Below, one piece after another: positions 7,934-11,382 of a stretch of DNA of 40,411 bases. Source of the DNA: a bacterium (GTDB taxonomy: Bacteria > Patescibacteriota > Minisyncoccia > 1-14-0-10-42-19); NCBI GenBank assembly GCA_030690215.1, contig JAUYHD010000016.1, positions 81,681-122,091 of the forward strand, written 5' to 3'. The position numbers and the translations under genes are program-made. The notes below the pieces were generated by a model. It saw only the letters and a program-made list of their open reading frames with translations. It did not search any database and was not told where the DNA came from. Each line of letters opens with the position of its first letter. Position 1 is the first letter of the stretch.

Positions 7934-8061
7934 CATACCAAAAAACACAAAAACGCCCTATATTAAACTATTCGCCTATTCCCTCCTCCGTCCCCTCCTT
8001 CTAGAAGGAGGGGACTTCGGACGGGCAAAGCGCGCGAATTAGAGATATGAATAAAACAAAA
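7934..8061 (-). repeat. Duplicated gene leader, copy 1, with a 50-bp palindromic insert
   Basis: Positions 7934-7981 and 8032-8061 match 8939-9016 almost base for base. Both copies lie directly upstream of a minus-strand gene that starts ATGGA. In this copy 50 bp (7982-8031) interrupt the homology; the insert contains a perfect 24-bp palindrome at 7991-8014 (CCCCTCCTT/AAGGAGGGG centred on CTAG). Confidence 0.75.
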
Positions 8062-8099
8062 TAATGTGCTAGATCGGGTTTTGAACAAAACGGGAATTT

Positions 8100-8930
8100 T
8101 TATTTCATCAACGATTGAATCCATTTTTTGCGTTCTATAAAATCGGGGTATTTTTCTTCAAGCGCTTTTGCAAGCAAATATCCCTTTTTGTGAGAACTAT
8201 CTATCATTTTCTGGGCCTCATCATCCATATCAATGTGCTCAAAGCCCAATTGCCGTTTTGCTTCCCTATCTATCATCATTGCGTACATCTCACCAATCGT
8301 TGCCCTATCAATATCTTGGGTTATATCCAATGTTTTCATAAACTCCCGTCTTTGTTTTTCTGAAGGGAAGGCGGGGATCTCGCCCTCATTCGGCCAATCG
8401 CGAAGTAACATTTCTTCTATGTGGCCAGCTTCATGAAAAACAAGATCAGTATCATACTCAAAACGGCTTCCATGGATCCTTTCAAAAACTTCTTTGGGCG
8501 GTATAAGGATTGCTTTTAATATTTTCTCCTTGTTCTCTAGAACTTTCGGATTGGGAACTTTTTTAGCGTTAAGCGCCGTTTCTTCCAGTTCTGGGACTTC
8601 ATACCAAGCCCCCGCTCCCGCATAATCTCTTTTTCTAAAATTCTTTCCGTGCCCAATGCAATATATATGAAAATCTTTTTCGTTCTGGGAAGCATCTTCA
8701 ACCTTAAACTCATCAGTAGATTGATGTTCCCCTTTTGTAATTACATAAAAGTTCTTACTATCAAAGCTTGCGATTCGCAAATCATCTAACGTTTCTTTAC
8801 CGAGAACACCCAAAGAAAAAAGAGTTTTAGCGCTCTCTAATAAAACTTCTTTGTCGTCCTCTCCCATTTCGTATGACTTAAAGTAAGCCTCTTCTGTTTC
8901 TCCAAAATTTTCTTTTGGTAATTGCTCCAT
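8100..8930 (-). CDS. Putative gluzincin-like zinc metallopeptidase (HEAGH)
   Basis: From ATG 8930 the protein has 276 residues. It has no signal peptide and should be cytosolic. HEAGH (about residues 166-170) sits in a helix-like DTDLVFHEAGHIEEMLL, and a Glu-containing helix IGEMYAMMIDREAKRQLG about 40 residues later could give the third zinc ligand, as in gluzincins. The rest is a mixed charged domain I do not recognise. The frame extends to 8966, but that part lies in the leader shared with the uracil-DNA glycosylase gene, where it is in another frame, so it is unlikely to be translated. Peptidase activity is inferred. Confidence 0.65.
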   Translation of the reverse strand: MEQLPKENFGETEEAYFKSYEMGEDDKEVLLESAKTLFSLGVLGKETLDDLRIASFDSKNFYVITKGEHQSTDEFKVEDASQNEKDFHIYCIGHGKNFRKRDYAGAGAWYEVPELEETALNAKKVPNPKVLENKEKILKAILIPPKEVFERIHGSRFEYDTDLVFHEAGHIEEMLLRDWPNEGEIPAFPSEKQRREFMKTLDITQDIDRATIGEMYAMMIDREAKRQLGFEHIDMDDEAQKMIDSSHKKGYLLAKALEEKYPDFIERKKWIQSLMK

Positions 8931-8938
8931 TTCCTTAT

Positions 8939-9016
8939 CATACCAAAAAATACAAAAACGCCCCATATTAAACTATTCGCCTATTCGCGCGAATTAGAGA
9001 TATGAATAAAACAAAA
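8939..9016 (-). repeat. Duplicated gene leader, copy 2 (uninterrupted)
   Basis: A 78-bp sequence nearly identical to the two parts of 7934-8061. It ends at the start region of the HEAGH gene and contains the join CTATTC|GCGCGAATT where the other copy carries its 50-bp insert. Confidence 0.75.
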
Positions 9017-9092
9017 AACGCATTTCTGCAGTTTTTATGTTAACGTGTTACGCGCCGCCCGCCTGCCGGTAGGCAGGTCTGGCAAGAGATAT

Positions 9093-9213
9093 AAGGGGGA
9101 TTTACGCCTTCTTCCCAAAAAATGATGAGTGGAGAGAAGTGGCGCAGTCGCCCAAGAACGCAAAATTTATTTTTGTATTAGTATAGCTTTGTGGGTTTGA
9201 TTAAAATAGGGTG
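9093..9213. repeat. Diverged intergenic duplication, copy 1
   Basis: The segment contains AAAAAATGATGA...GGAGAGAAGTGGC and ends TTTGATTAAAATAGGGTG. The same order of blocks occurs at 9673-9808 with many changes. Just upstream (9056-9082) is a GC-rich palindrome, GCCTGCCGGTAGGCAGG. No gene is seen. Confidence 0.5.
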
Positions 9214-9251
9214 AAAAAGTTGCCAGGAAAGACAACTTGTTTTTAGAGGAA

Positions 9252-9497
9252 TTAGTATTCCAACTTAATCCCCACCTTGTCGGCAATCTGTTTCATCCAT
9301 TTCTCAATCCTATCAACACGATGAGCAAGGACAAGCATTTCTTGAAAGTAGGTATCTGCTTTCTTGGCATAGGAATCAACAGAAGATTGTAAATCAGAAA
9401 AATCTTTTCGCACTTCTTCAAGGTCTTTCTTTGTGGCAACCTCTTCCCTTGTAGCAAAAACCTCTATTAATTTTTTGATATCTTGATCCGTAAGCAT
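9252..9497 (-). CDS. Small coiled-coil protein of unknown function
   Basis: The 81-residue product begins MLTDQDIKKLIEVFATREEVATKKDLEE and is predicted to be almost entirely helical with heptad spacing of hydrophobic residues, ending VDRIEKWMKQIADKVGIKLEY. Similar short coiled-coil proteins are frequent in CPR genomes; no function is known to me. A TTGACG-18-TACAAT promoter lies so close that the mRNA would have only about 2 leader bases. It stands alone between repeat blocks. Confidence 0.65.
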   Translation of the reverse strand: MLTDQDIKKLIEVFATREEVATKKDLEEVRKDFSDLQSSVDSYAKKADTYFQEMLVLAHRVDRIEKWMKQIADKVGIKLEY

Positions 9498-9505
9498 ATA
9501 TTTCC

Positions 9506-9535
9506 ATTGTAGGACGCAACCAAAACATCCGTCAA
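9506..9535 (-). promoter_or_regulatory. Promoter of the coiled-coil gene, near-leaderless
   Basis: TTGACG (9535-9530), 18-nt spacer, TACAAT (9511-9506) on the minus strand. The predicted +1 is near 9499 and the ATG is at 9497. Confidence 0.6.
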
Positions 9536-9558
9536 GGGTACGCCAAAATTAAAGAAGG

Positions 9559-9652
9559 TGGGTAAACTTGCCTCTTCAGGCAACTTTTGTTGCGCGCCGC
9601 CCATTCGGGCGAGCCTCGCAAATTTTTCTGAAGAAAAATTTGCGCGGGTGGG
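9559..9652. repeat. Three-hairpin repeat, copy 1
   Basis: It carries TTGCCTCTTCAGGCAA, then GCCGCC...GGGCGAGC, then a long AT hairpin CGCAAATTTTTCT/AGAAAAATTTGCG. The same three modules in the same order occur at 10855-10941 next to the initiator tRNA, where the last hairpin follows the tRNA 3' end. Confidence 0.7.
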
Positions 9653-9672
9653 ACGAATTTGGCACGGTTTTG

Positions 9673-9808
9673 CTAGGGATTTAAAGGCGATTTATGCTCT
9701 TTCTGCGAAAAATGATGAATTGGAAGAAGCGGCCTGATCGTCTAAACGAGCGATATTAAATTATTATATTCCCAATATAGCACCTGCGATTTGATTAAAA
9801 TAGGTGGG
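9673..9808. repeat. Diverged intergenic duplication, copy 2
   Basis: Shares AGGGATTT, AAAATGATGAATTGGA, AAGCGGC and TTTGATTAAAATAGG, in order, with 9093-9213. Both copies lie upstream of a minus-strand gene start at a similar distance relation. Confidence 0.5.
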
Positions 9809-9870
9809 GGAATTAGTGCGTTAAGGCAAAATATAAACTACCCCGTCTTCGGTCTTATCAAAATATTTTA

Positions 9871-10440
9871 TTATCTCAAATGCGGCTTAAGATACTCTTC
9901 AATTTTTTTGGTTGCCAATTGAACTGCTTGATTAAATTCATCCCCATCACCGCCATCATAAATAATGTTGTCTATTTCTTCCATTTTCCCAGGCTCGGTC
10001 ACTCGTTGCTCAATAAATATTCTAAGGCTTATAAGAAGTTTTTTGATACAATCTTGAAAATCTTTTTGAACTTCAACCGCCCCTTTCCCCCAAGATACTT
10101 CCGCTTCTTTTAATTCAACATCTAAGTCAGAATTTGCTTCTGTAACTTTTTTCCAACGCACAACATAGACTGCTCGAATTGAGTCTTTATTATTTATTGC
10201 CGAAGAAGAGTCTTTGCCTTCCTCTTTGAGAGCCAACATCATTTCTGTGTGAGAAATAAAAGGATTTCTCACATATTTTAGGGCGTCTCTAATTTTATAA
10301 ACCGATCTTAAATATCGTCTAGCAAGCTCATAGTCAGTTTTTCCTTTCAGCTGCTTCTTCCAAGCGGTAAGACCAATTACTGCTACCACCGCTCCGGTTA
10401 AAGCGGCTAGAGCCATAATGCTATCGGTTATTATTGTCAT
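9871..10440 (-). CDS. Membrane-anchored protein of unknown function
   Basis: The 189-residue product has one N-terminal membrane segment (about residues 8-27) followed by WKKQLKGKTDYELARRYLRSVYKIRDALKYVRNPF, a pattern seen in uncharacterised single-pass proteins of many bacteria. The rest is helical and soluble (residues 50-189). No catalytic motif is seen. It is the last of a group of three minus-strand genes (10828 to 9871) with gaps of 1-3 bp, all coding for membrane proteins, so they probably act together. Confidence 0.65.
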   Translation of the reverse strand: MTIITDSIMALAALTGAVVAVIGLTAWKKQLKGKTDYELARRYLRSVYKIRDALKYVRNPFISHTEMMLALKEEGKDSSSAINNKDSIRAVYVVRWKKVTEANSDLDVELKEAEVSWGKGAVEVQKDFQDCIKKLLISLRIFIEQRVTEPGKMEEIDNIIYDGGDGDEFNQAVQLATKKIEEYLKPHLR

Positions 10441-10443
10441 AAT

Positions 10444-10617
10444 TCATGGTAGCTTTGGCAAGCCAAACAGCCCAGGCCGCTCATTTTCAATCCATCCACT
10501 ATGATCAATCTCGCCCTTATAATTAATTTCTATCCCATTACGCAATATCAAAAGAAACCAAAAAATTGTAACCAGGAGTGCTAACTTAAACCAATTTTGT
10601 GTTAAAAATTTCTTCAT
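10444..10617 (-). CDS. Small single-pass membrane protein
   Basis: From ATG 10617 the protein has 57 residues: a basic start MKKFLTQNWFK, one membrane helix (about residues 11-27), and a polar tail ending GLFGLPKLP. The frame extends 6 codons upstream to 10635 but then overlaps the preceding gene more deeply. The start overlaps the upstream stop, indicating translational coupling. Function unknown. Confidence 0.55.
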   Translation of the reverse strand: MKKFLTQNWFKLALLVTIFWFLLILRNGIEINYKGEIDHSGWIENERPGLFGLPKLP

Positions 10618-10618
10618 A

Positions 10619-10828
10619 TTATTTTTTGCGGGCATTTTCTTCCAGTTCTTCGAAACGATTCTTTAGCCATGCCCCAAGCTCAGTAAGTTGAAAAAGTATT
10701 AATACCAGCAGAACAACTACTAATCCTATAAAATTATCCCTTACCCAATCATGAAGTAGCCAGCTAGCAACAGCAAGAACTACAAGAAAAATAAAAACAC
10801 GTTTTCTACTTTCTCTATAATAAGACAT
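10619..10828 (-). CDS. Small membrane protein with two hydrophobic segments
   Basis: I choose ATG 10828 (MSYYRESRKRVFIFLVVLAV, 69 residues). It has two membrane segments and a charged C-terminal helix (ELGAWLKNRFEELEENARKK). The frame is open back to 10954, but that part lies in the three-hairpin repeat and the tRNA, so it is not real coding sequence. It is the first gene of the small membrane protein trio. Function unknown. Confidence 0.6.
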   Translation of the reverse strand: MSYYRESRKRVFIFLVVLAVASWLLHDWVRDNFIGLVVVLLVLILFQLTELGAWLKNRFEELEENARKK

Positions 10829-10854
10829 GTTTGAATAAAATATTATTAAATAGG

Positions 10855-10941
10855 TATGGAAACTTGCCTCTTCAGGCAACTTTTGTTGCGGGCCGCCTAA
10901 AGGCGAGCCTCGCAAATTTTTCTTCAAAAAAATTTGCGGGG
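10855..10941. repeat. Three-hairpin repeat, copy 2, abutting the initiator tRNA
   Basis: Same module order as 9559-9652. The AT hairpin GCAAATTTTT...AAATTTGC overlaps the last bases of the tRNA acceptor strand on the minus strand and is followed there by further hairpins, so it may act as its terminator or 3' processing signal. Confidence 0.65.
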
Positions 10942-11259
10942 GCCGGAATTGCACCGGCGTCTGGAGGTTCTTTTACACCTCTTGTTTCCAAAAGGAATGG
11001 ACTATACCACCTTCCTCTGCAAACTCGCAAAGGAAGTTCCTATTATAGTCTCTGAACCTTGTCGCCTAAGGCGACCTTGGCTGCTGATTACCAAATCCCC
11101 TTTCTTTTCACGCATTCACATATATCTTTACAGATTCTGTTGTAGCGAAAAGGGCTCTTATGGCTTTCCAGCAATTTAAGGAATTTTTCCACTTTACATT
11201 ACTGTAAAGGGTCACAGATATTCTATGAGCCTCCCGAGGTACTACTCCTCCACCCCGCG
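10934..11259 (-). tRNA. Initiator tRNA-fMet(CAT), split by a group I intron
   Basis: Exons are 11259-11225 (5') and 10969-10934 (3'). Joined, they give a full cloverleaf: acceptor CGCGGGG/CCCCGCA with the initiator C1-A72 mismatch, D stem GAGG/CCTC with the initiator-type A11-U24 pair, anticodon arm GGAGG-CTCATAA-CCTCC, T arm GCCGG-TGCAATT-CCGGC. The CCA end is not encoded. Only two of the three hallmark G-C pairs of the anticodon stem are kept (A29-U41). The intron lies after U36. Initiation in this cell would depend on splicing if no second copy exists elsewhere. Confidence 0.9.
10970..11224 (-). ncRNA. Self-splicing group I intron in the anticodon loop of tRNA-fMet
   Basis: The 255-nt intron shows the conserved core in the right order on the minus strand: P (AAATTGCTGGAAA, about 11178-11166), Q (AATCAGCAGCCAAGG, about 11089-11076), R (GTTCAGAGACTATA, about 11057-11043) and S (GGTATAGTCC, 11008-10999). 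R and S pair as P7, the guanosine site. Between Q and R is the P6 hairpin GTCGCC-TTA-GGCGAC; between R and S the P8 hairpin CTTCCT...AGGAAG. The 5' exon ends in U and can pair with GUGACC in the intron to form P1 with a U-G pair; the intron ends in G. No homing endonuclease is encoded. Confidence 0.9.
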
Positions 11260-11268
11260 GCATAAAAT

Positions 11269-11300
11269 CATCACGGGGTACTGCTCCTCTTACACCCCGC
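11269..11300 (-). repeat. Partial duplicate of the tRNA-fMet 5' half in the leader
   Basis: Immediately upstream of the tRNA the minus strand reads GCGGGGTG, a TAA insert, then GAGGAGCAGTACCCCG and GATG, closely matching the acceptor 5' strand, D arm and start of the anticodon arm of the real tRNA 41 bp away. It has no 3' half. Confidence 0.6.
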
Positions 11301-11304
11301 AATG

Positions 11305-11333
11305 TGATTATTATGATAAAACAAATTCGTCAA
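11305..11333 (-). promoter_or_regulatory. Candidate promoter for the tRNA-fMet gene
   Basis: TTGACG (11333-11328), 17-nt spacer, TAATCA (11310-11305) on the minus strand. Transcription would start at about 11298, so the partial tRNA duplicate would be the 5' leader. Confidence 0.35.
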
Positions 11334-11382
11334 ATTCGCAAATACGCCCAAAAAGTGTTTTCTGCTGATTTTCTTAAAACTC

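Follow-up and report, generated by a model that had tools for sequence, protein, structure and literature searches.

That tRNA genes of bacteria, the cyanobacterial tRNA-fMet gene among them, can harbor group I introns has long been known (PMC1995217, PMC3984707), and the tRNA group I introns of Patescibacteria are the subject of a preprint by Nakagawa, Amikura, Omae and Suzuki (2025, bioRxiv 10.1101/2025.07.03.662931) that is cited in PMC12641178. Likewise, the rRNA introns of the CPR bacteria have been surveyed by Tsurumaki et al. 2024 (PMC11270868). The intron described here comes from a 40,411-nucleotide stretch of Patescibacteriota DNA (the whole of which is hereafter the window), and it adds a member to this already known kind of element. 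Taking together its structure, the comparison with a close relative and its distribution, we propose that it is very probably a site-specific, patchily distributed and near-neutral selfish group I ribozyme, which splits the single tRNA-fMet gene detected in its host genome and on which the maturation of that tRNA depends. As such, it would represent a clean natural case of a selfish ribozyme lodged in a seemingly single-copy essential gene that has an intron-free counterpart within the genus.

On the minus strand of the window, between positions 10934 and 11259, the two halves of the tRNA-fMet gene are interrupted by a 255-nt group I intron, whose insertion point lies between U36 and A37 in the anticodon loop (Table 1). 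The Rfam covariance model RF00028 matches positions 10978-11234 of this strand over the full model (model positions 1-253) with a score of 73.8 bits (E = 4.8e-17) against a gathering cut-off of 50 bits. ARAGORN, when introns are allowed, independently arrives at the same splice sites, calling a tRNA-Met(CAU) with a 255-nt intron from gene nucleotide 36; neither default ARAGORN nor the Rfam tRNA model reports a tRNA-fMet gene at this location. Further, the RNA is predicted to fold more stably than all 100 of 100 dinucleotide shuffles (z = -7.5). That a group I intron interrupts this initiator tRNA gene is hence confirmed, and the preliminary description of this DNA, which had recognized it and proposed a covariance-model search as the check, is sustained in most of its particulars: the model scores above its cut-off across its full length, the exon boundaries it had placed coincide with those of ARAGORN in the intron-permitting mode, the P7 pairing, the U-G in P1 at the splice site and the terminal G that it had read are each found in the window sequence, and the exons join, as it had claimed, into a full tRNA with the initiator hallmarks C1xA72 and A11-U24. 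A homing endonuclease ORF was sought in the window intron and none was found, the sense-strand ORFs in the ORF list that lie wholly inside it all being shorter than 40 aa; thus, if it moves at all, it would have to do so with assistance in trans or by recombination.

Table 1. The split tRNA-fMet locus of the window, with its ribozyme helices and upstream elements, and the loci of Patescibacteria with introns in tRNA-fMet.
Feature	Position or locus	Strand	Content and basis
Promoter-like TTGCGA-17-TATCAT upstream of tRNA-fMet	11313..11341	-	consensus match only, weak, 9/12
12-bp leader hairpin between promoter-like site and tRNA	11269..11304	-	fold
5' exon of tRNA-fMet (nt 1-36)	11225..11259	-	acceptor 5' strand, D arm, anticodon stem 5' strand, C32 U33 C34 A35 U36; ARAGORN with introns; identical to continuous G002 gene
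Group I intron, 255 nt, endonuclease-free	10970..11224	-	RF00028, ARAGORN, ORF list
3' exon of tRNA-fMet	10934..10969	-	A37 A38, anticodon stem 3' strand, T arm, acceptor 3' strand, A73, CCA unencoded; ARAGORN with introns; comparison with G002
P1	11213..11227	-	CAU/AGA (slash, splice site) with UCUGUG; U.G wobble at splice site (11225); alignment
P2 hairpin	11192..11209	-	7/7 pairs covary
P3	11037..11183	-	UUCCU 11183-11179 / AGGAA 11041-11037; 5/5 pairs covary, 100% paired
P4	within 11061..11174	-	11174-11169/11086-11081; RF00028 and alignment
P5	within 11061..11174	-	11164-11161/11093-11090; RF00028 and alignment
P6 arm	within 11061..11174	-	11075-11070/11066-11061; RF00028 and alignment
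P7	11000..11050	-	GACUAUA 11050-11044 / UAUAGUC 11006-11000; catalytic-core helix (G-binding site); mostly invariant
P8 hairpin	11011..11036	-	9/10 pairs covary
P9 hairpin	10978..10995	-	alignment
Terminal omega-G	10970	-	sequence
fMet-U36 loci, first part	L076, L077, L173, L175, L177, L181, L183, L185, L190
fMet-U36 loci, second part	L212, L216, L222, L225, L227, L231, L236, L239
fMet-U33 loci (4, Patescibacteria)	L187, L191, L201, L235

Every helix of the pseudoknotted P3-P7 core, along with P4-P6, P8 and P9, is present in the window intron. In an alignment of 17 fMet-site introns, including that of the window, from which the helices were taken, 93.5% of the cells are paired and both-sided changes are seen at 39 of the 58 pairs. 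The covariation score of this alignment is 0.571 as against 0.203 in shuffles, with none of the 500 shuffles reaching it, and the signal is destroyed when the partners are slid by one to three columns. It is P2, P3, P8 and P9 that covary, with P1 and P6 also listed as doing so; P4 and P7 are near-invariant, as would be expected of the core, and these helices are thus conserved, yet uninformative on covariation. The U.G at the 5' splice site is retained in 16 of the 17 introns. This anatomy appears to support ordinary group I splicing, for which we advance the following plausible course. The pre-tRNA would fold such that the CAU of the 5' exon pairs with the guide sequence of the intron in P1, with the U.G at the cut. 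A guanosine bound by P7 would then attack after U36, and the freed 5' exon would in turn attack after the terminal G, joining the exons to a normal initiator that RNase P and CCA addition would finish.

The splice sites are attested most strongly by the continuous gene of another genome of the same genus (G002), which presents the same locus without the intron. To elaborate, its contig C4 ends ...GGCTCATAACCTCCAGACGCCGGTGCAAT, i.e., with the 5' exon running straight on into 22 nt of the 3' exon, the two being joined as predicted (57/57 identical), and its contig C6 opens with the 3' exon and runs through to the end of that exon. Together, C4 and C6 match the predicted spliced product at 71 of 71 positions, and ARAGORN reads this intronless gene as tRNA-Met(CAU). 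The locus is orthologous with syntenic flanks: the upstream corrinoid adenosyltransferase shows 78% and the downstream uracil-DNA glycosylase 87% protein identity between the window and G002, and the amidase, likewise upstream, also matches. Since the exons are identical despite the flanking DNA being only about 70-84% identical, the tRNA is under constraint; and since G002 has this gene, exons unchanged, without the intron, the intron is dispensable over evolutionary time. Within this genus the empty site fits recent gain and recent loss alike. That G002 lacks the intron while many families have one at this very position agrees with repeated gain or loss. The 3' splice site is also the exact starting point of contig C6, which shares 22 nt with C4; a break of this kind would be expected if the sampled population were a mixture of intron-plus and intron-minus alleles.

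The surroundings of the gene also differ between the two genomes. In G002 the tRNA-fMet directly adjoins the uracil-DNA glycosylase gene, and in the window about 2.9 kb of ORFs of unknown function (7949-10933) separates them. An att-type tRNA-end repeat bounding this extra DNA was sought and not found, and of the proteins of the region that were tested, none matched Pfam or PADLOC, while PHROG gave a single weak match. Upstream of the tRNA, where a promoter-like site and a leader hairpin are seen, positions 11271-11300 of the minus strand resemble a degenerate partial copy of the 5' half of the tRNA (alignment score 30 versus a shuffled maximum of 22). Neither this hairpin nor the partial copy was found in front of the G002 gene or of any of the 15 further fMet-intron genes that were examined for it.

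The host genome is a draft of 1.02 Mb in 38 contigs that is 96% complete; judged by GatA, its nearest named relatives are Giovannonibacteria and further Parcubacteria, at 51-61% identity. In this genome 44 tRNAs score above the Rfam cut-off. Among them ARAGORN calls just one other tRNA with the anticodon CAU (C11:43292-43364), which has G1-C72 and C11-G24 and is thus of the elongator type. A BLAST search of the host genome with the spliced tRNA as query for a second tRNA-fMet gene returned matches only to the two exons of this gene, and a pattern search for an intact 3' half of tRNA-fMet found none in the host genome or in 12 other genomes with fMet-U36 introns. The same pattern was positive in 9 of 16 genomes for which no group I match is listed; hence, it is about half sensitive, and the absence of an intact tRNA-fMet is suggestive rather than proof. 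In sum, covariance-model, BLAST and pattern searches of this 96%-complete genome found no second intact copy, the condition on which the preliminary description had made its reading depend, and they are suggestive of the split gene being the single initiator gene, with a copy in a gap of the 38-contig assembly being possible. We also noted a 44.8-bit tRNA-like sequence with the loop TTTACAA (L046, C5:19824-19894) that ARAGORN rejects and that is possibly a degenerate or unusual tRNA.

The window initiator itself has certain oddities. The three G-C pairs 29-31/39-41, an initiator hallmark that the preliminary description had left out, are incomplete (A29-U41, G30-C40, G31-C39), the T loop is TGCAATT with G55 instead of U, and the D loop has 7 nt and lacks the usual GG. 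The A29-U41 variant also occurs in the fMet genes of several relatives, and the G55 T loop and short D loop recur in many of its relatives within the class, so that another interaction may stand in for the usual G18-Psi55 elbow contact. These odd features, the draft state of the genome and the degenerate partial 5' copy just upstream might be taken to mean that this is a dead or decaying copy, whose intron has lost the ability to splice, with the work being done by a second tRNA-fMet gene that went undetected. We find this scarcely credible: the exons equal the intronless gene of G002 though the flanking DNA has diverged, the core helices are intact and covarying, and none of the three kinds of search yielded another initiator.

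In a class-level sample, we found group I introns in 206 of 384 genomes (E<=1e-6). The 111 loci from this list that were read for their host gene place many of the introns in tRNA-Phe, Thr, Asn, fMet and others, with the remainder being mostly in rRNA. Introns after U36 of tRNA-fMet were found at a minimum of 17 loci besides the window, occurring at this same site across many families. In the tree, the window intron and 16 other fMet-U36 introns form one clade (support 100/100), which persists in a tree made without P1 and the 3' end. The class-level labels 'Leu(cag)' and 'Leu(aag)' were rejected, as a reading of the exons shows these to be fMet genes, and ARAGORN with introns allowed miscalled four related fMet genes as Leu. 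Thus, routine tRNA annotation misses or mislabels the initiator genes of Patescibacteria: with default ARAGORN having found none here and four relatives having been miscalled, a missing tRNA-fMet in these genomes should not be taken as incompleteness. In another genome of the same family (G001), a group I intron is present in tRNA-Phe (L058, contig C35), after U33 as judged by P1, and an apparent fMet half is seen at a contig end.

One might extend these observations to a class-wide Patescibacteria intron lineage that is specialized on the initiator U36 and independent of the cyanobacterial U33 introns, such that translation initiation in many of these reduced genomes hinges on a ribozyme within a single-copy gene, where the rate of splicing could be of physiological consequence; in this broad form we consider the proposal rather unlikely. 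A more specific role would be that of a regulatory device, wherein the rate of splicing, set by GTP or folding, limits the supply of the initiator and hence global translation. While the host gene is the sole detected initiator gene and the intron recurs in the same gene over many families, such same-site recurrence is equally compatible with homing or inheritance, and the genes for tRNA-Phe, Thr and Asn and for rRNA also harbor such introns in this class, implying that they are not aimed at initiation. Moreover, no conserved sensor domain was seen outside the standard group I fold, and the same-genus G002 does without the intron. A regulatory device is hence highly improbable. For guanosine binding by group I introns, micromolar concentrations suffice, and cellular GTP is far more abundant than that. 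The control point tied to the GTP level that had been proposed earlier was not borne out either, as an intron missing from G002 with identical exons is dispensable. A selfish, near-neutral element accordingly remains our preferred explanation, and it is as such that we compare it with known systems.

The 23S and 16S rRNA introns of the CPR bacteria (PMC11270868) share their phylum and ribozyme class with the window intron; however, they reside in rRNA and often carry LAGLIDADG endonuclease genes, unlike the latter. The host genome has a 23S region with large insertions and two more group I matches, one of them over the cut-off (contig C18, L051). The cyanobacterial tRNA-Arg(CCU) introns (L294, L298) are also inserted after position 36, but they have a different host tRNA and are not sister to the window intron in the tree.

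The tRNA-fMet intron of Synechocystis 6803, which encodes I-Ssp6803I (PMC1995217), resembles that of the window in being a group I intron in the initiator anticodon loop; in contrast to the endonuclease-free window intron, it codes for a homing endonuclease of the PD-(D/E)XK type. Our cyanobacterial sample comprised 145 genomes from the class of a Prochlorococcus record, 85 with group I matches. All 8 of the fMet introns that were read from this sample lie after U33 as opposed to U36, with some of these splice points having been read from the exons by eye rather than placed by ARAGORN. In the tree they stand apart, outside the lineage of the window intron, and a topology that unites all fMet introns in one clade is weakly rejected (p-AU 0.044), a value that should be given little weight. 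Thus, the parallel with cyanobacteria drawn in the preliminary description stands with respect to the host tRNA and falls with respect to the insertion site and intron lineage.

One of the fMet-U33 introns of Patescibacteria encodes a 185-aa protein (L235:578-1135, minus strand) that matches PF11645 and PDB 2OST (E = 1.4e-54), the latter of which we take to be I-Ssp6803I, the endonuclease of the Synechocystis fMet intron. This match suggests that the cyanobacterial-type fMet homing endonuclease is also found in Patescibacteria and speaks for movement between phyla in the case of the U33 type rather than the U36 type seen in the window. The shared host tRNA, this close endonuclease homologue and the grouping of the fMet-U33 introns of Patescibacteria near the cyanobacterial ones are what would favor descent of the window intron from a cyanobacterial tRNA-fMet intron through lateral transfer. 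Given, however, that it sits at U36 rather than U33, that it belongs to a separate clade with other introns of Patescibacteria and that monophyly of the fMet introns as a whole is weakly rejected, such a descent is very unlikely. We instead favor a selfish ribozyme of the U36 lineage; with the U36 and U33 lineages being separate, the initiator anticodon loop appears to have been invaded at two positions.
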